From a virus, in IMG/VR virus record IMGVR_UViG_3300032050_000078, positions 1-64,000 of that record: a DNA stretch of 64,000 nt. One strand, given 5' to 3'. How positions within the stretch are numbered: the stretch's first letter is position 1; each line of letters opens with the position of its first letter. Shown piece by piece: positions 12,955-45,224 of the stretch. The translations under genes were made by a program, and so were the position numbers. The notes beneath the pieces were generated by a model. That model was not told the origin of the DNA. It did no database searches and saw only the letters and a list, made by a program, of their open reading frames with translations.

Positions 12955-13131
12955 ATGAAACAAGAAGTAGAACAATCAAAAAAAGAAGCAACACAAGTTA
13001 CAGGATGTAGTCAATGTAAAAAAGGTATGAGTAAAACACAATGGGGATTATTAATATTCTCATTATATATGTTTGGTGCCGGAATTTACGGTACCATCCA
13101 AATAATTAAAGATGTAATTTCTTTATTTTAA
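12955..13131 (+). CDS. Small single-span membrane protein, 58 residues
   Basis: The Glu/Lys-rich N-terminal part contains a CSQC pair, followed by one long hydrophobic helix (WGLLIFSLYMFGAGIYGTI) and a short amphipathic end. The topology could suit a holin-like or envelope-localised protein; nothing decides between them. Its stop overlaps the convergent dnaJ stop by four bases. Confidence 0.65.
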   Translation: MKQEVEQSKKEATQVTGCSQCKKGMSKTQWGLLIFSLYMFGAGIYGTIQIIKDVISLF

Positions 13132-14057
13132 TCCCTTTCAAATCGGACATGCTGGTTAACCAACAAGTCACCTATCACTTCACCTTTAAACCCTTTTGAT
13201 TTAACTCTTAAGGGTTTTGTTGTATCAAATGTCTTTGGGAATCTTAACCTTACCGTACCGTCAGGATGAGGTATTTCAAAATCACTCTTCTTCAAATCAT
13301 CCAATGTGAAATAAGCATTATAAATTAAGTGAGGTCCGTACTTTTCAAAATTATTATCAGAAACCAATTTAACTCTAACAACTAAGTTACCATAAACACC
13401 GTTTCTAAAATCCCCAACACCTTGTAATCGGATGAATTGTCCATCATCAATACCATTAGGTAATTTAACTTCAACAGTTTTCATCTCATCTTTAGTCCCA
13501 CTACCATTACAAATATGACAAGGATTTGTAATAACTCGTCCATGTCCTGAACAAGTGTTACAAGCAACTTGTACCATTTGTATAAACATACCAGACCCCA
13601 TCTGTCTCACTACAGAACCTTGTCCATTACATTCGGGACAAATTTTCTTCTCACCCCCACTACCATTACATGGATCACATTTTAATTTCCTACGATATGT
13701 GATTTCTTTATTCGCACCCAAATATGATTCAGTAACTTTTAATTCAGTATCAATAACTAAATCATGTACCACATTTTTTTGTCTACGATTACCAAATGCC
13801 TGATTAAACATCTGTTGGAATATATCGTCACCTCCTCCCATTCCTGCAAATGGGTTCTTTCTTCTCATATCATACTCTTGTCGTTTGTTATCGTCACCAA
13901 TAGTATCATATGCTTCAGCAATTTGCTTAAACTTTTCCTCATCACCACCAGCATCAGGGTGATTTTCTTTTGCCAGTTTACGATATACTTTTTTTATCTC
14001 ATCTTGGGTTGCAGTTTCAGGAACACCTAATATGTCGTAATAATTCGGAATATTCAT
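13128..14057 (-). CDS. dnaJ: DnaJ co-chaperone
   Basis: An Hsp40 of 309 residues. The J domain (2-65) keeps the HPD tripeptide that stimulates the ATPase of DnaK (HPDAGG). A short Gly-rich region follows, then four zinc motifs (CDPCNGSG, CPECNGQG, CNTCSGHG, CHICNGSG), then a substrate-binding domain. It is shorter than typical bacterial DnaJ (about 375 residues), mainly at the C-terminal dimerisation end. It probably recruits host DnaK for phage replication complexes or capsid assembly. A host-type promoter indicates early expression. Confidence 0.95.
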   Translation of the reverse strand: MNIPNYYDILGVPETATQDEIKKVYRKLAKENHPDAGGDEEKFKQIAEAYDTIGDDNKRQEYDMRRKNPFAGMGGGDDIFQQMFNQAFGNRRQKNVVHDLVIDTELKVTESYLGANKEITYRRKLKCDPCNGSGGEKKICPECNGQGSVVRQMGSGMFIQMVQVACNTCSGHGRVITNPCHICNGSGTKDEMKTVEVKLPNGIDDGQFIRLQGVGDFRNGVYGNLVVRVKLVSDNNFEKYGPHLIYNAYFTLDDLKKSDFEIPHPDGTVRLRFPKTFDTTKPLRVKSKGFKGEVIGDLLVNQHVRFERD

Positions 14058-23013: not shown

Positions 23014-23814
23014 TTAGATATAATCAAATAATTCAGAACTCTCATTTCGTAACCTTCTCAAAGCTCTTTCTTTAATCTGTCTTACTCGTTCTTTAGTTAA
23101 ACCAAAATCACCTCCAATATCTTCCAAAGTTCTTGGTGTTCCACTAAGTCCAAAATAATCCTCAATAATTACTCGTTCTCTTTCATCTAAAACACTAAGT
23201 GTATTGATTAATTTTTCTTTAAGAATGTCCGCAGTATTAAAAGCCGCATCAGGAGCGTCTGCATCCATATTTGGTATCATATCAAGGAATGTATCTCCCT
23301 CATCATTGATATTCATATCTAAGTCAATCATTGATGGTAAAGATGAGAATTTATCCGATAGTTTTCCTCCATTATTCTCAATTTCTTTTTTAGCTTTATG
23401 AAGTTCCTGAACAACATTTACAGGAAGTCTAATTGTTCTCGCATTGTCATTTAAAGACTGAATAATAGATTGTTTAACCCACCAAACGGCATATGAAATA
23501 AATCTCAAATTTTTACTCCAATCAAAGTTTTTAATTGCTTTCAATAACCCTAAGTTACCCTCAGCAACCAAATCAGGAAAATCCAAACCTTGATTTTGAT
23601 ATTGTTTTGCAACGGTAATAACAAATCGTAAATTACCTGTTAACAACTCCTGTTCAACTTGTTTTCGTTGTTTGTCAGTTAAAGTATCCGACATCATAAG
23701 TTTAGATAATTCTTTTTCCCTTTCAGGTGTCATAACTTTAATCTTCCTAATATCCTTTAGGTAGTGAGAGATTTCATCCTGATTAATGGGCATTCCTGTT
23801 CCTTTTTCCTTCAT
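23014..23814 (-). CDS. RNA polymerase sigma factor, primary sigma-70 type
   Basis: A complete 266-residue sigma with region 1.2 (DEISHYLKDIRKIKVMTPE), region 2 (NLRFVITVAKQYQNQGLDF, then DLVAEGNLGLLKAI and FISYAVWWVKQSI), a short region 3, and region 4 with LEDIGGDFGLTKERVRQIKE. It closely resembles the roughly 287-residue RpoD of Bacteroidetes rather than T4 gp55 or an ECF factor. It should bind host core polymerase and choose promoters. An acidic segment (about 165-190) between regions 3 and 4 is unlike the host protein as I recall it. It is in the unit driven by the host-type promoter at 24370-24400. Confidence 0.95.
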   Translation of the reverse strand: MKEKGTGMPINQDEISHYLKDIRKIKVMTPEREKELSKLMMSDTLTDKQRKQVEQELLTGNLRFVITVAKQYQNQGLDFPDLVAEGNLGLLKAIKNFDWSKNLRFISYAVWWVKQSIIQSLNDNARTIRLPVNVVQELHKAKKEIENNGGKLSDKFSSLPSMIDLDMNINDEGDTFLDMIPNMDADAPDAAFNTADILKEKLINTLSVLDERERVIIEDYFGLSGTPRTLEDIGGDFGLTKERVRQIKERALRRLRNESSELFDYI

Positions 23815-23819
23815 ATATT

Positions 23820-24356
23820 TTATTTTGAGTATTGTTCCAATTTTAATTTCTCCGCCTTTGTGAGTGAATTTATTCCCTTGTCATTGATTTTATCTAAAAG
23901 TTCGTCCAATGACATATTACACACATCTTCATTTGTTTTATTGATAATAAATGGACTACCTTGATTAATCATATCCATAAACATATCAAAAATCGCACCA
24001 TCATTACTAATATCTTCAGAACTAACAGTGAAAGTATTAATCTCAATCTTATCCTCCTCATCAATAGACAATAGGTGATTTTTTCTATCCTTACCCATAT
24101 TTGTTGCCATCTTACCATTAAATGGTATTAAGGTAAACATAATGTCTTCTAATTCTTCAAAAACCATCTCAACATACATAGACATTTCTTCATATTTTAA
24201 CTCAGATTCAAAATGAAAAATTGCGTTACCATCACCATAAATGTATTTTATCTGTTCTGAAATTACAATGGGTTGGATTTCTTTACCAATTTTAGTGGTT
24301 AAGGCTTCACTATCCATAGTTTCACTTTCACCGTACACAAACATTAGATATCTCAT
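23820..24356 (-). CDS. Hypothetical acidic protein, 178 residues
   Basis: ATG 24356 is preferred; the longer frame would start close to the promoter's -7 box. The protein is acidic with alternating beta and helical segments (MRYLMFVYGESETM) and a Lys/Leu-rich C-terminus. It lies directly upstream of the sigma gene (five bases apart), so it is co-transcribed and may act with it, for instance as a regulator of polymerase. No motif supports this beyond position. Confidence 0.7.
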   Translation of the reverse strand: MRYLMFVYGESETMDSEALTTKIGKEIQPIVISEQIKYIYGDGNAIFHFESELKYEEMSMYVEMVFEELEDIMFTLIPFNGKMATNMGKDRKNHLLSIDEEDKIEINTFTVSSEDISNDGAIFDMFMDMINQGSPFIINKTNEDVCNMSLDELLDKINDKGINSLTKAEKLKLEQYSK

Positions 24357-24369
24357 ATTGTTTTTTTTA

Positions 24370-24400
24370 CAAATATACAAATAATTATTAATCCAACAAA
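24370..24400 (-). promoter_or_regulatory. Bacteroidetes-type promoter for the sigma-factor operon
   Basis: On the minus strand TTTG (24400-24397), 19 bases, TATATTTG (24377-24370). It drives the 178-residue gene and the sigma factor, so the phage sigma appears to be made by host holoenzyme. Confidence 0.8.
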
Positions 24401-25299
24401 TTTTTAGATTCTTTATTATTTTTTCTTTTCAATAAAGCATCTTCTTTAGATAAAAGGAATTTAACCTTTGGATTAGGTGTTTCATTAGTGTATGGTTCAA
24501 TATTTTGTATTCTTAGATTTGATAAATCGACATATTCTTCATTGATGTCAATACCCAAATAATTCCTGTTATTAAGTTTCGCCATCTTCAATGTCGTTCC
24601 ACTACCACACATAGGATCTAATACTATATCACCTTCATTACTCCAAGATAGAATATGATCCTCAGCCAATGATTCCGGAAATATTGCAGGATGTTGGAAT
24701 GCAATGTCGTCTTTGGATGAGAACCCTTTACCATTATTAACATACCATACATTATACCTTGTACCGAATTCAGATACAACAAACTTGTCAACCTTTTTAA
24801 GGTTTCCGTCTTTTTCTCTTTTTGATGGATCACCAAAATTACTATGTCCCGCCCATCTATTTGGTTTATCTTTTAATAGATTAACCGTTTTTGGTTTCCC
24901 TTTTGAAAGGACGAACATATATTCAAATACTTGTGAGTATCTACCTGTTTCAGGAAATGGGGCTCCATTCTTATGATAAATCATCGTATCGTACAATGTA
25001 AATCCAATCTCCTTAAATTTAAGTGCTTGTCTGAATGAACTACCAGTTTCTCCACCATTTTTTACTTGATCATTTACCACCCAAATAACAACACCACCCT
25101 TCTTGGTTACTCTATATAACTCACGAGCCATTTCCACAAATGGGAAACTAAATCCATCTTCAAAGACAACCTCATCCTTAATTTTTCCATTATAAGTTCT
25201 TAAGTTATCATACGGTGGTGATGTTACAGTTAAATCAAATGTATTATCCTCATATCTTTGTAATACTTCAATCGCATTACCTAAAATTACTTCATTCAT
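24388..25299 (-). CDS. DNA methyltransferase of a restriction-modification-like pair
   Basis: A 303-residue protein. The catalytic TSPPY is at residues 26-30, after VILGNAIEVLQRYED. The SAM-binding motif DPMCGSGTT is in the C-terminal third, followed by NYLGIDINEEY. This order (catalytic motif first) is the beta-type arrangement of m4C/m6A enzymes in PF01555. Its start overlaps the stop of the upstream PD-(D/E)XK nuclease gene by four bases. Protection of phage DNA against that nuclease is the natural reading. Confidence 0.92.
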   Translation of the reverse strand: MNEVILGNAIEVLQRYEDNTFDLTVTSPPYDNLRTYNGKIKDEVVFEDGFSFPFVEMARELYRVTKKGGVVIWVVNDQVKNGGETGSSFRQALKFKEIGFTLYDTMIYHKNGAPFPETGRYSQVFEYMFVLSKGKPKTVNLLKDKPNRWAGHSNFGDPSKREKDGNLKKVDKFVVSEFGTRYNVWYVNNGKGFSSKDDIAFQHPAIFPESLAEDHILSWSNEGDIVLDPMCGSGTTLKMAKLNNRNYLGIDINEEYVDLSNLRIQNIEPYTNETPNPKVKFLLSKEDALLKRKNNKESKNLLD

Positions 25300-25985
25300 A
25301 TTTTTTCAAAAATTAGTTTTTGGTATACTTTATTGTTTTTAAGACTACCACAAAAAATATTTTCACTATAGTCAATATTTGATAAAAATTTAAGTGTAGT
25401 AAAACTACTATTATTTTTAGCCTCACCTTTCCAAAAATCTTTATCCAAGTTAATTAACATACCGAAAATACCATCAACATATTTTTCACTTTCCTTAACT
25501 TTTTTATCACGATTAATTGATAATGATATTAATAAAAAAATATCCGCTTTTGATGTTGTATGTGTTGCACCTGTAAATGCGGTATCGCTTTGGGTTACTT
25601 TAATTTCAATTATAATAATTTCACCGTTAAACTCAAATATAGCGTCAAAAGATTTACCCTCAATTTCTTCAGTATTAACAATCTCAGTAATTTTAAGTAC
25701 TTTAATATTTGCGTCGTTATAGGTTGAGAGAATTGTATTTAATTTGTAAACTAAAAATGATTTAACACCATCATATGATAATCTGGTTGTAGTCAAAACT
25801 GTGTGTTGTCTTACATCATCTTCAACATCTTTCACCCATTCATTAATTGTCAACCCCTCCCTATTCGCAATAGGGAATATGGTTAAAGGAATTTCGTTAT
25901 CAATATACTCAACTAAATATTTTGCAAACTTTAATTTTTTTAAATGAATAACTAAATCCCTAACCAAAATTTTCTTATCTCTCAT
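25296..25985 (-). CDS. Putative PD-(D/E)XK restriction endonuclease
   Basis: At 229 residues, it has the core FDAIFEFNGEIIIIEIKV, which gives D114, E127 and K129 spaced as in PD-(D/E)XK nucleases (D-x12-E-x-K) on consecutive beta strands. The following TTSKADIFLLISLSI resembles the segment after the active site in type II enzymes. It overlaps the methyltransferase start by four bases, the classic linkage of type II restriction-modification genes. I do not recognise a specific family member, so recognition site and activity are unknown. Confidence 0.75.
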   Translation of the reverse strand: MRDKKILVRDLVIHLKKLKFAKYLVEYIDNEIPLTIFPIANREGLTINEWVKDVEDDVRQHTVLTTTRLSYDGVKSFLVYKLNTILSTYNDANIKVLKITEIVNTEEIEGKSFDAIFEFNGEIIIIEIKVTQSDTAFTGATHTTSKADIFLLISLSINRDKKVKESEKYVDGIFGMLINLDKDFWKGEAKNNSSFTTLKFLSNIDYSENIFCGSLKNNKVYQKLIFEKI

Positions 25986-26037
25986 TTTAAACTTATTTAC
26001 CTAAATATAAGAATAAAAATCCACTTAGTCATCTATC

Positions 26038-28413
26038 TTATTGATATACCTTTGAAATATTATCTTCTTTTCTAATCTTAACGATGGTGTCCGCCCACTG
26101 ATTAACCATTGGGTTGTGTGTAATGACAAATATTTTCTCAAAATATTCTTTAATTTTAATAAAGAATTCTGAAACCATTTCCAAATTGTCGTTAGATATT
26201 TTTCCGAACACCTCATCAAAGACAATTATATTTGGTTTTGGTAACGAACAAATCTTACTTAATACTGATCTCAATGCCAATGATGCAATTGTTTTTTCAT
26301 AACCTGAACCTGATGTCATTAATTTCTCAACACCAGTACCGTTGTCAATCATCATAAACTCAACTTCATTCTTATCGTTAATTCTAACTTCAAGTTTGAA
26401 GTATGAACTATCCTCCATTAGTCTTTGAAGTTCTGAGTTTATTATCGGCATCATAGTTTTCATTATGATTTTAGATATCCCATTTTTACCGAACGCCTCC
26501 AAATATATTTTATATAATTTTTCTTTTTCAGATTCCTCCTGAATTTTGATTATTGTATTTAAATTATTTTTAATCTTATCTTCCAACGAGGTGATTTGGT
26601 AAGTATTATTATTGATTAGTGTTTGTTTTTGAGTCTTTTCTCTTTCAAGTTCCTCAATTCTAATACCTGCTTTTAACAACATACCCTCAATCTTCTCATT
26701 TTCCTTAATTTTTTCAATCAATTCGTTATACCTTCCTAATTTTTGTTTTAAATTTTCAATTTTAAGATTATAACTCTCAATACTCAAATCATATTTTTCT
26801 TTAATAAGTTTGTTTTTCTCATACTCATCAAACTCTTTTTTAAGTTGTACAAATGCCTGTTCTTTGCCTGATAAAACCGTCATTAACCCCTCTTTTTCCT
26901 CTTTTTGCCTATTATAACCATCAAGTTCGGCAATTTTAGATTGGGTGATTGATGCCATCATTAAATCAATACCACAGTGTTCGCATTTAATTCCACCATC
27001 AACGGAACTCTTTAATTCCTCAATTGATTTAATCTTACTCTCAACTTGGATTTTTTCCTTGAATACTTCGTTATATTCTTCTTTAACCTTATCGTGTTGA
27101 TCCTCATAATAAAAAGAAGATGGTTCAACTACCTGTAATTCATTTGACTTCTTAATGATGTCACCTTTTTGATACTCAAATGAGTTAATCTCATCTTGTA
27201 CCTTATCAGGGTTTGTTTGAGCAATATCATTATCTATATCAGTATGTTTCTTTTTTAACATATCGTCACGATAATCCTTACCCTTTGTTAAGTTTACTTC
27301 AACTTGATTAAGTTCGTCTTTCAATGTATCAATACTAGTTTTAAAATTTTCAATATCAGTTTCATATTGTTCATTATCACTTTTTAATTGCTCAGTATTA
27401 TAAACATTAGATAACATTGATTTAGAAAAATCAGAATAAATTTGTTTTGCAGATTCTTCTTTTTTCTTTAAAAACTCCAACCCCATAAACCTTGAGAGTA
27501 CCTGTCCTCTTGCCGTTGGTTTTGATTCCAAAAGGTCCTCAAGATTTGTTGCGGTGGTTAAAATTGTCATTAAGAAATCATCTTTAGAACCGATTGATGT
27601 TTTAATGAATTGTTCGGTTTCTCGTCTTTGTTCACCAGTAAAGTTTTGTAAACTACCGTCGGAAAGTTTTTTGAAGAAGTCTAATTCGGTTTTAACATTC
27701 CATTCACCTTTCTTAGACATTTTTCTTTCGATGTTTCTAACAATAATATATTCTTCACCATCAATAATAATTTCACCCTTTACAACTACCGAGTTTTTAT
27801 CGGTAAATCGATTAAAGATTTCTTCCGCCTTTGATGTTTTTGTTGTCTCATTAAAGAATAGGAACATTAATAAATCCACCGATAATACTGTCTTACCACC
27901 AAAGTTAGGTGGATTAGATTCAACTACTGTAATACCATTACATTTATCAAAATCAATACGCTGATTATCACCATATGATAAGAAATTAGAGAATTCAATA
28001 TTTTTGATATACCATTTCTTAAATGATGAGGTTTCATCTTCTGATTCAGACATTTTATTCTCAACCATTCTATTGATTGACATAACCTCATCAATACGAT
28101 TTTCATACCCCTTAGACTTAAGAAATTGTTTCAACAAATCAGTTTGATAATTTGTGTCCATAATGTTTACAGACACATCAACACTTTGCATAGTATCTTC
28201 CTGAATGTTTTTAACTTTTGTGATAACATTCACATTAGTGGAACCGTACTTCTTTTGGAAGTAATGTTTAACACTCTTAATCTTATCTTGTGTGAAATTC
28301 TCTGAAATGTCTTCCCATACTACTTGAATAGGTGGGTTTTCAAATTTAGAAAACTCTAAATCTTTTATCATAATTTTATAATTAAATGTTTTTGGTGGAT
28401 TAAACAGATCCAT
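26038..28413 (-). CDS. 46: gp46/SbcC/Rad50-like recombination ATPase
   Basis: A 791-residue SMC-type ATPase. The Walker A region is PPNFGGKTV near residue 170. Two long coiled coils flank a zinc hook CEHC near residue 478, the ABC signature reads SGSGYEKTIASLAL, and Walker B is NIIVFDEVFG followed by FVITHNPM. With gp47 it resects DNA ends for recombination-dependent replication. An extra domain of about 135 residues precedes the ATPase, absent from typical gp46. The first glycine of Walker A appears replaced by Ser/Asn. It is separated from the gp47-like gene by three small genes. Confidence 0.92.
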   Translation of the reverse strand: MDLFNPPKTFNYKIMIKDLEFSKFENPPIQVVWEDISENFTQDKIKSVKHYFQKKYGSTNVNVITKVKNIQEDTMQSVDVSVNIMDTNYQTDLLKQFLKSKGYENRIDEVMSINRMVENKMSESEDETSSFKKWYIKNIEFSNFLSYGDNQRIDFDKCNGITVVESNPPNFGGKTVLSVDLLMFLFFNETTKTSKAEEIFNRFTDKNSVVVKGEIIIDGEEYIIVRNIERKMSKKGEWNVKTELDFFKKLSDGSLQNFTGEQRRETEQFIKTSIGSKDDFLMTILTTATNLEDLLESKPTARGQVLSRFMGLEFLKKKEESAKQIYSDFSKSMLSNVYNTEQLKSDNEQYETDIENFKTSIDTLKDELNQVEVNLTKGKDYRDDMLKKKHTDIDNDIAQTNPDKVQDEINSFEYQKGDIIKKSNELQVVEPSSFYYEDQHDKVKEEYNEVFKEKIQVESKIKSIEELKSSVDGGIKCEHCGIDLMMASITQSKIAELDGYNRQKEEKEGLMTVLSGKEQAFVQLKKEFDEYEKNKLIKEKYDLSIESYNLKIENLKQKLGRYNELIEKIKENEKIEGMLLKAGIRIEELEREKTQKQTLINNNTYQITSLEDKIKNNLNTIIKIQEESEKEKLYKIYLEAFGKNGISKIIMKTMMPIINSELQRLMEDSSYFKLEVRINDKNEVEFMMIDNGTGVEKLMTSGSGYEKTIASLALRSVLSKICSLPKPNIIVFDEVFGKISNDNLEMVSEFFIKIKEYFEKIFVITHNPMVNQWADTIVKIRKEDNISKVYQ

Positions 28414-39428: not shown

Positions 39429-40880
39429 TTATGGAACATAGTAAATACCACAACCTGTCGTACAATAATAAACAGAACCTGAAGGTAATGGTAATGACGA
39501 TTCATTTGGTAAATCCATAATTGATAAACAATTCATATATGTCGTATTAGGACAAGAAGTTGCTATTCCATTACCAACAATAAATGAACAATCGTGTATA
39601 ACCGTATTTCCAGAACCACCTAATATTGACGAAGATATTCCAATTGATGTGTTACATATACCACCACTTATTGTTGAATATGTAGATCCTGTTAATATTG
39701 TATTTTGATAACCACCACCAATTGTTGTACTTGTTGATCCTGTTAAAATTGTATTACAATACCCACCACTTATTGTTGAATACGAAGCACTTGATGTGTT
39801 ACTACGACCACCACCTATTATTGAATATGTTGACCCCGTTAATGTTGTATTTCTATATCCACCACTTACGGTTGAGTAACAAGCACTTGATGTGTTGTAT
39901 TTTCCCCCACCAATTGTCACATAATAAGAACTTGATGTGTTACCCGCACCTCCTACAACTGTTGAAAAATTATTAGTTGATTTGTTAAATGATCCGCCAC
40001 CAACAAATGAACCATTACCACTTGATGTGTTACCTCTACCTCCACCTATGGTTGAGCAATCTCCACTTGATGTATTATTTAGTCCTCCACTTACGGTTGA
40101 ATAATAACTACTTAAAACATTATTAATAGTTAATGTAACATCATTTGATGATGTACCACCAGGAAAAGTTGTTCCTGTAATAAAAATAGTGTCACCATTA
40201 CTATATCCAAAACCTCCATTTGTGATTGTAACTCCAGTTATTGTATTACCACTAACATCAAATGTAAAATCCGCACCAACACCATAACCACTTGTTGTTG
40301 TTTGAGAATAAGGTCCGTAAGTCGCATCTGCAAGACCTAATCCAGCACTTGGAGTATATGAACTTAGAGTTGAGATAACACCTGTTGGTCCTGTTAAATT
40401 ATTTGCACCACCCGATATAACACTTCCACAAGAACTATTATTATTGAAGGATCCTCCACCAATAAATGAATAAATACCGCTTGATGTGTTGTTACGACCA
40501 CCACTTACCGTCGAATAAACACAACTAGATGTGTTAGCCGCTCCACCACCAACTGTTGAGTAATAACTACTCGATGTATTAAGGTATCCACCACTTACAG
40601 TTGATTTATTTCCACTTGAGGTATTACAATAACCTCCACTAACTGTTGAATAACTTCCCGACGCTTCATTATTATTATCACATCTCATTGTTGATCCAAT
40701 TCCTGCATCCAAAACCATAATTGTGGAACCACTTATAGTGTCCATCATCTGACTAACGGTTGCTTTATATGATGAACCCGCAGGATCGTCAGTTATATCT
40801 GTCGGAATTACAATATGAATTAAATCATTTAATGTGACTCCCGTTGCCAATACTCTGTCTGTAAGTTTTTGATTTGCCAT
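39429..40880 (-). CDS. Repetitive beta-helix-type tail fibre, short paralogue
   Basis: A 483-residue protein. After an 80-residue head domain (LATGVTLNDLIHIVIPTDI, then DPAGSSYKATVSQ) it has repeats of about 15 residues of the type YSTVSGGYCNTSSGN. These resemble the head repeats of trimeric autotransporters and the NTASGxYSTVxGG arrays of bacterial and phage fibres. A non-repeat insert at about 170-265 (with GGFGYSNGDTIFITG) interrupts the array. The head domain is shared with the 1035-residue fibre at 42117, so both probably dock on the same baseplate site. A TATTTATA (40901-40908) lies 20 bases upstream. Confidence 0.85.
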   Translation of the reverse strand: MANQKLTDRVLATGVTLNDLIHIVIPTDITDDPAGSSYKATVSQMMDTISGSTIMVLDAGIGSTMRCDNNNEASGSYSTVSGGYCNTSSGNKSTVSGGYLNTSSSYYSTVGGGAANTSSCVYSTVSGGRNNTSSGIYSFIGGGSFNNNSSCGSVISGGANNLTGPTGVISTLSSYTPSAGLGLADATYGPYSQTTTSGYGVGADFTFDVSGNTITGVTITNGGFGYSNGDTIFITGTTFPGGTSSNDVTLTINNVLSSYYSTVSGGLNNTSSGDCSTIGGGRGNTSSGNGSFVGGGSFNKSTNNFSTVVGGAGNTSSSYYVTIGGGKYNTSSACYSTVSGGYRNTTLTGSTYSIIGGGRSNTSSASYSTISGGYCNTILTGSTSTTIGGGYQNTILTGSTYSTISGGICNTSIGISSSILGGSGNTVIHDCSFIVGNGIATSCPNTTYMNCLSIMDLPNESSLPLPSGSVYYCTTGCGIYYVP

Positions 40881-40899: not shown

Positions 40900-42120
40900 T
40901 TATAAATAATATAATACTTCTGCGGTTCCCAAAAATGTTGCACTTGCACTTAATGGTGTTATACATACCCACATTTCATCAAGTGTTCCATCAACATTAG
41001 AACCAACTCTAATTTGATTATCATCCACTTTAATTGTTGAAAGTGCTGATGATCCTGATTCACCAATTAAAGACGACATAATGTGACCTGGTGATGTTAT
41101 CGTTGTTGTAACAGTCCCATTATATATTGAATATTGAAATGGTGAATTTGGTATATCTGTCCAACTTGGAGTTGCAGATAATGTAGGATTAAATTCAATA
41201 GTCACTAAGTAATTATCATTTGAGGTATTTAAAATACTCAAACTACTATATTGCGATGTCACTGATTTATAACTTGGTTTAAGTCTATAACCAATATATG
41301 GATATTTTGTACCTGACGAATTTAAATCTGCAGTGGTTGAGTTTATAACTCCTACAGTGGAATATAGTCCGTTTAATGCTCCTTCGGTTGATACTTGTGA
41401 ACATATCATATCAAAACTTCCTGAACCAACACCAACTTGTCTTATTTCATACCTTATTGGTTGATTTGGTGATGACATATAAACATTTGGTTCGTTATTA
41501 GCACAATTATGTTCGGTAAAATAAATTAATATTCCATCTAAATCCAAACCAAATCTCATTCTACCAACACCTAACCATTGATAATCAACTGACATTAAAT
41601 TAGTGTTAGACCAATCTAAACCTATTGGGTTAAATTCATTAGTGTTCCATACGGTTGTTGCCGCACTATAAACCGTAGTTCCCGATCTCCATATTTGAAA
41701 ACTTATTTCGTTTGTTACCCCATTACTTTCTAAAAAGAACCCATCAAAAACCGAATTATATGTAGATGCCGTTGTTGAGGTGAATCCTCCCACCCTTTTT
41801 ATGACATTTGTTTCTAACTGAAAATTTGAGAAACTTGCTTGGAATAATTGACTTTTTCCTGGTTGGTAAATAGGGTGTGTTTTTGATTGTCTTATAACTA
41901 AATCATTATTTGCCGCAGTTGACATTCTAACTCTCGCAAATTGTTGATTAAAAATTGACGTTGCAGTTCCTGCGGTAACCTCATTTACTTGTAATGGATT
42001 TTTATCGTATACGTGTTTAATGTCCAATAAATTTTGGACTGCGGCAGTTCTTAACCTACCAAATGCATCTAAATTTGCACTGTCACTATAAGATACTTGA
42101 TTATTAAAAATAAAACTCAT
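40900..42120 (-). CDS. Tail-associated structural protein
   Basis: A 406-residue protein. ATG 42120 gives an ATGA overlap with the preceding fibre gene and is preferred to the in-frame TTG at 42132. The N-terminal SYSDSANLDAFGRLRTA resembles a widespread opening of phage virion proteins (ANLDAFGRLRVS). The rest is beta-rich without repeats. It lies between two paralogous repetitive fibres and may be the protein on which they are assembled, or a separate fibre; the exact position in the virion is unknown. Confidence 0.8.
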   Translation of the reverse strand: MSFIFNNQVSYSDSANLDAFGRLRTAAVQNLLDIKHVYDKNPLQVNEVTAGTATSIFNQQFARVRMSTAANNDLVIRQSKTHPIYQPGKSQLFQASFSNFQLETNVIKRVGGFTSTTASTYNSVFDGFFLESNGVTNEISFQIWRSGTTVYSAATTVWNTNEFNPIGLDWSNTNLMSVDYQWLGVGRMRFGLDLDGILIYFTEHNCANNEPNVYMSSPNQPIRYEIRQVGVGSGSFDMICSQVSTEGALNGLYSTVGVINSTTADLNSSGTKYPYIGYRLKPSYKSVTSQYSSLSILNTSNDNYLVTIEFNPTLSATPSWTDIPNSPFQYSIYNGTVTTTITSPGHIMSSLIGESGSSALSTIKVDDNQIRVGSNVDGTLDEMWVCITPLSASATFLGTAEVLYYL

Positions 42121-45100
42121 ATTATATACCAATTTCCGTTTCTCACCATAACAGTAAGAGACATATAGTTTATATTCATATCAACATATGAATTACCATC
42201 AATCAATCCTGATGCTGGCGTTAATCTTATTCTGTATGAACCAGAAGTTCCTGCTTCATCTTTTATCAATAAATAATAACCATCTTTCGATGTTGTTGTC
42301 GGTAATGTTAAATCAACATTTGATGAACCACTAACCCCCCAATAACTTTTATCCCAAGTTAATGTTTGTGATGATGTTATTGCGGAGGTCGCATAATTCA
42401 ACGGTAATGAAATATCTCTTGATTTAACGACACCTGTTGATGTATCTCTCACCAAGAAATTTGTATTTGACGGATCAGTATCTGGTGTATTTTGTAATGT
42501 TAAATAATTTGTATGGAATGTACACGCTGAAACCGATGTAATACCAACACCAAAAGCCGATGAACAATTATGTGTTACGGTATTTCCTGAACCTCCTAAA
42601 ATTGAAGAATAATTTCCTATTGAGGTGTTAAATACTCCACCTAAAATTGAGGAGTAGTTTCCTGTTGTTGTGTTATTACTTCCTCCACCAATGAAATTAT
42701 TACTTGCCGTTGTAGTTCCCGATATTCCACCACTTATTACCGAATAATCTCCACAAGCAGTATTGTTAGAACCACCACCAATTGATGCTCCGTTACCTAT
42801 AAGTCTATTACATATACCTCCAGATAAGGTACCCCAAACACCATTATTTGTATTTTGTAGTCCTCCACCAACAAACGAAAAATAATTTGATGCAGTATTA
42901 CGACAACCACCACCTACGGTTGATCCATTACAATTTGATGTATTACTAATTCCTCCTAATATTGACGAACAATTACCACTTGTTATATTTTGCAATCCAC
43001 CACCTATTGTTGATCCAACACCTAAAGATCGATTCAAACATCCACCACCTATTGTCGAATAACACCCACTTGATGTGTTACCTCTACCTCCACCAATAAA
43101 TGTAAAATAATTTGATGCGGTATTAGTTCTACCCCCACTTATTGTTGATACTACACCATTACTTTTATTTTGCGTTCCCCCACCAACGGTTGAATAACAC
43201 CCACTTGATGTGTTACCTCTACCACCACCTACGGTTGAGCAATCTCCGATTGATGTGTTACAATAACCTCCACTTACGGTTGATATAAAACCGATTGACA
43301 CATTTCTTCTACCACCACCGATAAATGAGTATCCCCCACTTGACGTGTTTAAACATCCACCTACTACGACTGATGAAAAACTACTTATTGTGTTACCACT
43401 ACCTCCACCAATGGTTGAGTTTGCTGCTGATGCTAATATTGTATTTTGTTGTCCACCACCAATGGTTGAACTTGTTGCTCCAGCTAATATTGTATTACAA
43501 TAACCTCCACTAACTGTTGAAGCTTTACCGTTAACTTTATTAAAATAACCTCCAACTACTAAACTATAAACATCACACGAAGTATTTCCACAACCTGATC
43601 CTATAAAACCACCCGTAGACATATTTGTATTACAAACACCCCCACCAATTACTGAGCACGCTCCTAATGATGTATTACCTATACCCCCACTTACCGTTGA
43701 GGTATCACCAACCGATGTATTTTGACGACCACCACTTACTGTTGAACACACACCATAAGATGTGTTACTGAATCCACCTCCAACAGTTGATGCATAACTA
43801 CTTGACGTATTAGCGTTTCCACCACCGACTGAACTATATGTTCCACACGAAATATTTGCTCGCCCCCCACTTATTGTTGATATTTGACCACACGCCCTAT
43901 TAAATTGACCACCACCTACGGTTGTAGAATCCCCTAACGATCTATTACATCTACCACCACCTACGGTTGAATAATATCCACTTGATGTACTACTTGCTCC
44001 CCCACTTATGGTTGATCTACCTCCACTTGAAGTGTTGTTTGCACCACCACCTACGGTTGAATAATAATCGCTTGAAGTATTACTCACACCCCCTCCAATT
44101 GTTGAATGTGTTGATCCTGTTAAGATTGTATTACATTCACCACCACCAATTGATGAACTTGTTGATCCTGTTAAGATTGTATTACATTCACCACCACCAA
44201 TTGATGAACTTGTTGAACCAGTTAATATTGTATTATTACACCCACCACCTATGGTTGATGTGTCACTATTTGTTTTGTTACTAAGACCACCACTTATGGT
44301 TGAATCCGCACCAATTGATGAGTTACAACGTCCTCCACTTATAGTTGAATAGTAACCGCTTGAGGTATTAAAACGCCCCCCACCTATGGTTGATTCACTA
44401 CCAATTGATGTATTACGATATCCTCCACTTATAGTTGAGTAATAAGTACCTGATGATGTGTTACATTTACCACCACCAACGGTTGAGTAACACCCACTTG
44501 ATGTGTTACTTCTACCACCGCCAATTGTTGAAAAATAATTACTTGATGTATTCCCACTACCACCGCCAATTGTTGACCAGTCACCACTTGATGTATTATA
44601 ATAACCTCCACTTACGGTTGAGTTAGCCCCATTTGATTCGTTACTTTGACCACCACCAACTGTTGATCCACCACCACTTGATGTGTTACCAACACCACCA
44701 CTTACGGTTGATCTAGAACCGCTTGATGTATTCAAACCACCACCACCAATCGTTGTTAAAGTTGATCCTATTAGTATTGTATTGGAGTTCCCTCCACCTA
44801 TAGTTGAGTTTGTTGCTCCTGTTAAGATTGTATTACAATACCCGCCACTTACAGTTGAATTATTAGATGTTGAACCATTTTGTTGTCCGCCACCTACTGT
44901 CGAATAACACCCACTTGATGTGTTACAATACCCCCCACTTACAGTTGACCAATTACAACTTGATGTATTTACTCTACCACCACTTACAGTGGAGTAGTTC
45001 CCACTTGCATCATTATTATTACCACATCTTTCAACCGAACCAATTCCAGAACCAACTATCATAACAGATGTTCCACCCGTTAATGCTCCAAGTACTTGCT

Positions 45101-45224
45101 GAAAACACGCTTTATATGATGATCCAGCAGGATTACCTTGTGATAAATCATTAGGATCCACTATGTGAAATAAATCAGTTAAATTAACCCCGGTTGCTGG
45201 TATTTGATCCGTTAAAAATGCCAT
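42117..45224 (-). CDS. Repetitive beta-helix-type tail fibre, long paralogue
   Basis: A 1035-residue protein. A head domain (IPATGVNLTDLFHIVDPND, then NPAGSSYKACFQQ) is homologous to that of the 483-residue fibre. About fifty repeats of 15-17 residues follow, such as STVSGGYCNTSSGCY and STIGGGNSNTILIG. A C-terminal domain of about 130 residues (LTLQNTPDTDPSNTNFLVRD, then GYYLLIKDEAGTSGSYRIRL) is probably the tip. The repeats form an extended stalk, likely trimeric. Cysteines recur inside the repeats. It starts 14 bases after a TATTTATA. Confidence 0.88.
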   Translation of the reverse strand: MAFLTDQIPATGVNLTDLFHIVDPNDLSQGNPAGSSYKACFQQVLGALTGGTSVMIVGSGIGSVERCGNNNDASGNYSTVSGGRVNTSSCNWSTVSGGYCNTSSGCYSTVGGGQQNGSTSNNSTVSGGYCNTILTGATNSTIGGGNSNTILIGSTLTTIGGGGLNTSSGSRSTVSGGVGNTSSGGGSTVGGGQSNESNGANSTVSGGYYNTSSGDWSTIGGGSGNTSSNYFSTIGGGRSNTSSGCYSTVGGGKCNTSSGTYYSTISGGYRNTSIGSESTIGGGRFNTSSGYYSTISGGRCNSSIGADSTISGGLSNKTNSDTSTIGGGCNNTILTGSTSSSIGGGECNTILTGSTSSSIGGGECNTILTGSTHSTIGGGVSNTSSDYYSTVGGGANNTSSGGRSTISGGASSTSSGYYSTVGGGRCNRSLGDSTTVGGGQFNRACGQISTISGGRANISCGTYSSVGGGNANTSSSYASTVGGGFSNTSYGVCSTVSGGRQNTSVGDTSTVSGGIGNTSLGACSVIGGGVCNTNMSTGGFIGSGCGNTSCDVYSLVVGGYFNKVNGKASTVSGGYCNTILAGATSSTIGGGQQNTILASAANSTIGGGSGNTISSFSSVVVGGCLNTSSGGYSFIGGGRRNVSIGFISTVSGGYCNTSIGDCSTVGGGRGNTSSGCYSTVGGGTQNKSNGVVSTISGGRTNTASNYFTFIGGGRGNTSSGCYSTIGGGCLNRSLGVGSTIGGGLQNITSGNCSSILGGISNTSNCNGSTVGGGCRNTASNYFSFVGGGLQNTNNGVWGTLSGGICNRLIGNGASIGGGSNNTACGDYSVISGGISGTTTASNNFIGGGSNNTTTGNYSSILGGVFNTSIGNYSSILGGSGNTVTHNCSSAFGVGITSVSACTFHTNYLTLQNTPDTDPSNTNFLVRDTSTGVVKSRDISLPLNYATSAITSSQTLTWDKSYWGVSGSSNVDLTLPTTTSKDGYYLLIKDEAGTSGSYRIRLTPASGLIDGNSYVDMNINYMSLTVMVRNGNWYII
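42560..45030 (-). repeat. Coding minisatellite array of 45-51 bp units
   Basis: The stalk of the long fibre is encoded by units of mostly 45 bp (some 48 or 51), each reading roughly (S/A)T(V/I)(S/G)GGxxNTSSGxx. Units vary in third positions but keep blocks such as CCACCACTTA, so recombination between units is possible. Confidence 0.85.
44110..44211 (-). repeat. Perfect 51-bp tandem duplication within the fibre gene
   Basis: Bases 44110-44160 and 44161-44211 are identical. They encode two copies of the 17-residue unit around SSIGGGECNTILTGST. Exact identity in an otherwise diverged array indicates a recent duplication. Confidence 0.9.

Follow-up and report, generated by a model that had tools for sequence, protein, structure and literature searches.

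Why would a phage encode a nuclease directly beside a DNA methyltransferase? The methyltransferases of phages are usually solitary and serve as shields. In the DNA studied here (hereafter the window: 64,000 nucleotides, positions 1 to 64,000 of IMG/VR record IMGVR_UViG_3300032050_000078), the methyltransferase gene, which we call M, is preceded by a gene for a predicted nuclease, which we call R. An initial annotation, made without database searches, had proposed that the two form a restriction-modification-like pair with the layout of a type II system. We conclude that R and M most likely make up a single cognate type II restriction-modification system lodged in an exchange slot of a probably virulent jumbo phage, and we put the probability of this reading at roughly 0.85.

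The phage itself is large, freshwater and bacterial in host, and belongs to an uncultured lineage known to us from metagenome contigs, which make up all of the records used. There is no close cultured phage: within the phage collection, the top match to gp46 has only 26% identity. The full record containing the window is 77.8 kb long, and an identical stretch is present in a 304-kb record, so that this is probably a jumbo phage. The window encodes a baseplate J-like protein, a DnaG-type primase domain and a sigma-70 factor, and searches of six relatives of 214–304 kb turned up no Phage_integrase (PF00589) domain. The absence of an integrase from those six relatives is compatible with, but no proof of, a lytic lifestyle; taken with the gene content it fits a virulent jumbo phage. 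Bacteroidota promoters have a known −7 element, and the promoter-like TANNTTTG sequences of this lineage resemble it, which suggests by inference a Bacteroidota host. Among its other genes, all on the minus strand, the window carries a glutamine synthetase-like phage gene (1421–2620; PF00120 and PF03951), a phage-borne full-length DnaJ (13128–14057) with J domain, CXXCXGXG repeats and C-terminal domains, and a 1,035-residue protein with many STVSGGYCNTSSG-type repeats and no Pfam match (42117–45224). A shorter copy of the repeat protein lies at 39429–40880.

The R-M cassette lies, as the initial annotation had placed it, between sigma genes and gp46, and all the features given here are on the minus strand. 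The left anchor of the slot, outside the cassette, is the gene for gp46, an SbcC-like recombination subunit (26038..28413; PHROG 77, E 2.9e-41). A promoter-like sequence upstream of R, TTTTTATTCTTATATTTAGG (26000..26019), is an imperfect TANNTTTG; the sister records L204, L228 and L248 have a perfect TANNTTTG in its place. R (25296..25985) comes next, followed by M (24388..25299). The motif survey of slot edges found the promoter-like TATATTTG (24370..24377) at the right edge, upstream of the right anchor, a DUF6576 gene (23820..24380, with a likely ATG start at 24356; PF20216, E 2e-11), and beyond this flank is a sigma-70-like factor (23014..23814) with Sigma70_r2 and Sigma70_r4 domains. The predicted reading frames of R and M and their four-base overlap were borne out: the stop codon of R and the start codon of M share an ATGA (25296..25299), an arrangement common to all nine records L090–L098. 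We infer from this overlap that the two genes may be translationally coupled.

R, a protein of 229 residues with an ATG start, falls in no named family. It gave 0 Pfam, 0 NCBIfam and 0 PDB sequence matches, and does not meet the criterion of membership in a named restriction enzyme family. Searches of PHROGs and PADLOC returned insignificant matches only, and a PDB profile search returned only weak, unrelated and spurious ones. A scan of GTDB using the alignment of R found no relative, though with a single peptide pattern used the absence of R from cells is only weakly tested. Its conserved residues nevertheless include those expected of a nuclease of the PD-(D/E)XK superfamily. In an alignment of 11 sequences (the window R and ten relatives of 26–80% identity), D114, E127, I128, K129, Q132, G139, T141 and K146 are invariant. 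This set includes the D114, E127 and K129 that had been proposed as the active site (codons at 25644..25646 for D114 and 25599..25607 for the E-x-K of E127-I128-K129).

A structure prediction without a PD-(D/E)XK core had been named beforehand as an outcome that would refute the initial annotation. That outcome did not materialize. The AlphaFold model of R is confident (pLDDT 90.3, pTM 0.89), with D114 at the start of strand 115–119 and both E127 and K129 on strand 122–131, although it lacks a predicted helix of the kind usually found between core strands 3 and 4. Ranks 1–9 of the Foldseek search against the PDB (EcoRV, NaeI and the homing enzyme I-Ssp6803I) are all PD-(D/E)XK enzymes, led by EcoRV (E 2.8e-3, probability 0.98), with NaeI at probability 0.96. 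Hjc follows, RecU and SfiI are lower, and unrelated proteins are intermixed from rank 15. No PDB match reaches E 0.001, and TM-scores are about 0.3–0.4; the fold assignment therefore depends on the list being consistent, together with the invariant catalytic residues, and not on any single score. A viral structure library yielded two unnamed proteins that match R strongly (E 6.6e-13 with TM 0.73, and E 3.3e-9). On the evidence of the model, R satisfies what defines the superfamily, a core fold whose adjacent strands carry D and (D/E)xK, and also fulfils the type II requirement of a nuclease that has a known restriction-enzyme fold and intact catalytic residues. It is most likely the endonuclease, of an unnamed family, of a cognate type II system, a judgement made with no biochemical data to support it; cleavage itself is inferred.

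M is far easier to classify. It is a protein of 303 residues with an ATG start and matches the N6_N4_Mtase family PF01555 (E 9.3e-43). Its motif IV, TSPPY (residues 26–30; 25210..25224), and its SAM-binding motif I, DPMCGSGTT (residues 228–236; 24592..24618), are intact as had been claimed: across 13 relatives T26–Y30 are invariant, as are D228, P229, G232, T235 and T236. Judged from its sequence, M thus meets the type II criterion of intact SAM and catalytic motifs. The order TSPPY then DPMCGSGTT is that of the beta class, and S-P-P-Y suggests N4-cytosine methylation, an inference from known methyltransferase motifs. Selection on both genes is purifying, with dN/dS in close pairs of 0.11–0.20 for R and 0.03–0.06 for M, so both are maintained as proteins.

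Relatives of M are widespread, occurring in 636 phage records. We dropped an attempt to read specificity from its cellular relatives (45–59% identity), the neighbours of which are Hpy99I-like, endonuclease VII-like, HNH or unrelated genes. One such relative adjoins an Hpy99I-like His-Me endonuclease (L160:3756-4340; SH3_17, His_Me_b4a2 and Endonuclease_7), and further ones adjoin endonuclease VII-like or HNH proteins. A PF01555 methyltransferase is present in 6/6 large relatives of the window phage, and five of the six have at least two. Most of them encode, outside the slot, another N6_N4 methyltransferase similar in length (G001:C1:2744-3469, G002:C1:21763-22488, G005:C1:215632-216357 and G006:C1:89175-89897).

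Evidence that R and M belong together is that R was not found without M in any record sampled. In 16/16 records retrieved by alignment to R alone, M is directly downstream, either overlapping the R stop codon or starting no more than 26 bases from it. The ATGA overlap is kept in records with 72–100% R identity; in the remaining records the overlap is longer or gives way to a short gap. Some of these 16 duplicate a phage already represented, which reduces the independent cases to about four close lineages together with L025, L027, L028, the pair L029/L038 and the pair L039/L040. The linkage holds in more than one genomic background: R-M is upstream of gp46 and near a p117-like gene in L029 and L038, and is present without the gp46 flank in L039 and L040. 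In L078, a more distant relative of R precedes an M that is 55% identical to that of the window. No R without M was seen among the records retrieved, whereas M without R is common (L013–L016, L019, L023 and others). A restriction endonuclease without its methyltransferase would be self-destructive, and restriction-modification predicts such an asymmetry. Sister phages that carry a near-identical M (91–93%) without R indicate that M also has value by itself. The type II criterion of an adjacent nuclease and methyltransferase forming a conserved unit is met.

Two candidate replacements for R were set aside. A 178-residue gene that takes the place of R beside M in L013–L015 looks by eye like a D...ExK nuclease, but AlphaFold models of two sequences reached a pLDDT of only 35 and we make no claim for it. 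A 182-residue gene beside M in L019 was rejected because it is present without M in L190, L191 and L263.

What else occupies the position of R-M in related phages? We surveyed 80 records of the lineage, fetched by gp46, and defined the slot as running from the end of gp46 to the DUF6576/sigma genes. The slot is empty (<300 bp) in 26 records and filled (0.5–2.6 kb) in 54, and 47 of the 54 filled slots contain a methyltransferase. Clustering at 98% gp46 identity gives 52 clusters (17 empty, 29 with methyltransferase cargo, 5 with other cargo, 1 mixed). Methyltransferase-like reading frames are concentrated in the slot: in the same records, 49 lie within slots, which total 90 kb, against 2 across 825 kb of sequence outside them.

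Some of the cargoes are recognized restriction-modification systems. The slot of L235 holds an EcoRI endonuclease (PF02963, E 5.1e-123; top PDB match EcoRI, E 5.7e-108) beside an EcoRI methylase (E 2e-122). Both EcoRI genes are complete in this phage contig (L235:7431-9214), and the endonuclease retains its PDGG...EAK catalytic region. The slots of L016 and L202 hold an IceA-family nuclease (E 2.5e-36) with its own methyltransferase; IceA1 is an isoschizomer of NlaIII. This second pair lies between gp46 and M, beside a remnant of the 178-residue gene (L016:3591-4955, and also L202). Further cargo comprises Eco57I-like proteins of about 800 residues, a protein with N6_Mtase and type I specificity domains, D12 methyltransferases with unknown partners, Dam-like methyltransferase cargo, an HNH-like protein (below the curated cut-off) with a methyltransferase, and several unclassified genes, each partnered by a methyltransferase. 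The partner genes of several cargo methyltransferases were not identified as nucleases. In L278 the slot (36–1211 after gp46) contains a TnpB/OrfB-like gene alone, a different type of mobile cargo that we identified by eye. With R never found without M in the sampled records, several genomic backgrounds and recognized EcoRI and IceA-family systems in sister slots, the type II layout originally proposed is supported.

Sister phages also reveal where cargo is gained or lost. The flanks of the empty slot of L231 and the filled slot of L233 are 94–97% identical in nucleotide sequence, and the slot of L232, another sister, is empty as well. At both ends of its cargo, L233 has an exact 18-bp promoter-like repeat, TTTTATTCGTATATTTGT, which is present as a single copy in the empty L232. 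Empty and filled sisters define an insertion at the 18-bp repeat. More generally, the TANNTTTG motif is found in 26/26 empty slots, at 47/53 right edges and at 30/53 left edges, compared with 7% of random 85-nt windows; that these sequences act as promoters is inferred. Two other records show arrangements of this sort. L203 has, after another methyltransferase cassette, a 35-bp copy of the gp46 3′ end and then a relative of R that is truncated by the contig end, and in L202 only the C-terminal remnant of the 178-residue gene survives beside the IceA system. These patterns match recombination between short repeats, but the mechanism is an inference. The gp46 gene is itself interrupted in L013, where an intein-like sequence (L013:2083-2579) is inserted at the Walker A motif (GGK|TVLS). 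Its N part, beginning CIRYDTNIEIEF, runs for about 30 residues before a stop codon, and a distinct reading frame ends VSHN|TVLS. The broken frame rules out an in-frame mini-intein; the insert may be an atypically split or frameshifted intein.

Could M be an orphan methyltransferase that protects against host restriction, with R an unrelated nuclease that neighbours it by chance? The best PADLOC family of M is indeed an orphan one (oMTase, PDLC03714, E 2.8e-96, compared with E 7.7e-51 for MTase_II), M persists under strong constraint (dN/dS about 0.04) beside other genes or none, and PF01555 methyltransferases recur throughout the large relatives. An orphan, however, has no adjacent nuclease: this criterion holds for the M of sister phage L023 and fails for that of the window. 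Chance adjacency does not account for recurrence in 16/16 R-retrieved records across more than one background, nor for purifying selection on R, and the same slot hosts recognized R+M pairs. We regard this explanation as unlikely.

The fold of R allows two other roles, for which we find still less support. I-Ssp6803I is among its Foldseek matches, and cargo is present or absent among phages with nearly identical gp46 (empty in L231 and L232, filled in L233), as might be seen if R were a free-standing PD-(D/E)XK homing endonuclease that mobilizes the cassette into empty slots. Yet different phages have nucleases of different families in the slot, among them genuine restriction enzymes (EcoRI and the IceA family), and R tracks M and not an intron, an intein or even the slot, because R-M is also found elsewhere (L029 and L038–L040). 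A homing role is accordingly very improbable. Weaker Foldseek matches to Hjc and RecU, and the adjoining gp46, might instead point to a recombination nuclease of the Holliday-junction resolvase type acting with gp46. But restriction enzymes rank above resolvases in the Foldseek results, R is missing from most phages of the lineage (it is complete at the junction of gp46 and the DUF6576/sigma genes in 8/80 gp46-anchored records), and it follows M rather than gp46. This last possibility we consider scarcely credible.

A cognate restriction-modification pair, the reading we prefer, resembles known systems in some respects and departs from them in others. Orthodox type II systems likewise have two separate adjacent genes, and R shares the PD-(D/E)XK fold of EcoRV and NaeI and is linked to a beta-class methyltransferase. 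Unlike those systems, R has no detectable sequence relation to Pfam, NCBIfam or PDB entries, and the pair is phage-borne. M resembles the phage orphan methyltransferases in its PADLOC score but differs in having, in a subset of phages, a linked nuclease. The chloroviruses are also large lytic viruses with adjacent R and M, though they infect eukaryotic algae whereas the window phage is bacterial; there the viral R degrades host DNA and is carried inside the virion, and it did not prove to be the cause of mutual exclusion among viruses (PMC7019647). The slot itself is most like the antiviral hotspot described in 2022 in temperate P2-type phages and P4-type satellites, which carries mixed defence systems (PMC9122126). 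Both are small (1–5 kb) high-turnover loci with variable defence genes between two conserved phage genes, and the gp46 slot meets this criterion of conserved flanks and diverse defence genes, although protection by its cargo has not been shown. It differs in lying on jumbo phage contigs in which no integrase was detected, rather than in a P2-like phage or P4-like satellite, in being dominated by methyltransferase cargo, and in often having promoter-like repeats at its edges. In the open-access literature, to which our search was confined, we found no description of a slot between gp46 and the DUF6576/sigma genes.

How might the system work? M would mark the phage's own DNA at its recognition site during replication, yielding protected virion DNA, and R, whose gene immediately precedes that of M in what appears to be one operon, would cut unmarked DNA, whether the host chromosome or an unmodified competing phage or plasmid. 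The pair occupies a fixed cargo slot, in which related phages have other restriction-modification systems or nothing, and the contents of the slot might be replaced by recombination, either at the promoter-like repeats or at the 3′ end of gp46. Several points count against this proposal, among them the modest Foldseek scores of R and the restriction of the data to metagenome contigs. There are no cleavage data, no methylation data and no recognition site for R-M, which leaves the cognate specificity of the two enzymes, as well as any benefit to the phage, inferred; M belongs to the PADLOC orphan family and is present, nearly identical, without R in sister phages; and R before M is not the safest order for a system entering an unmodified cell. 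The virion DNA of a virulent phage would, however, arrive already methylated from the previous host, leaving no need to postpone R, and this may account for the gene order.

A restriction-modification pair is, by itself, a known kind of system; what is new is the exchange slot that a lineage of jumbo phages has for such systems. We see about even odds for a broader proposition: that a lineage of virulent Bacteroidota jumbo phages keeps a dedicated exchange site in its recombination/sigma operon, where unrelated complete restriction-modification systems are swapped via promoter-like repeats, so that cut-and-protect specificities, aimed at host DNA and rivals, differ between phages. If this is true, the trading of complete type II systems through a fixed slot would point to offensive restriction, destroying host DNA or excluding competitors. 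The slot is also a discovery tool, because an unannotated gene beside a slot methyltransferase is a candidate for a new restriction enzyme family, and R, without a named family, is already one such candidate. Moreover, the question of why viruses encode restriction becomes directly testable, by comparing sister phages whose slots are empty with those whose slots are filled.
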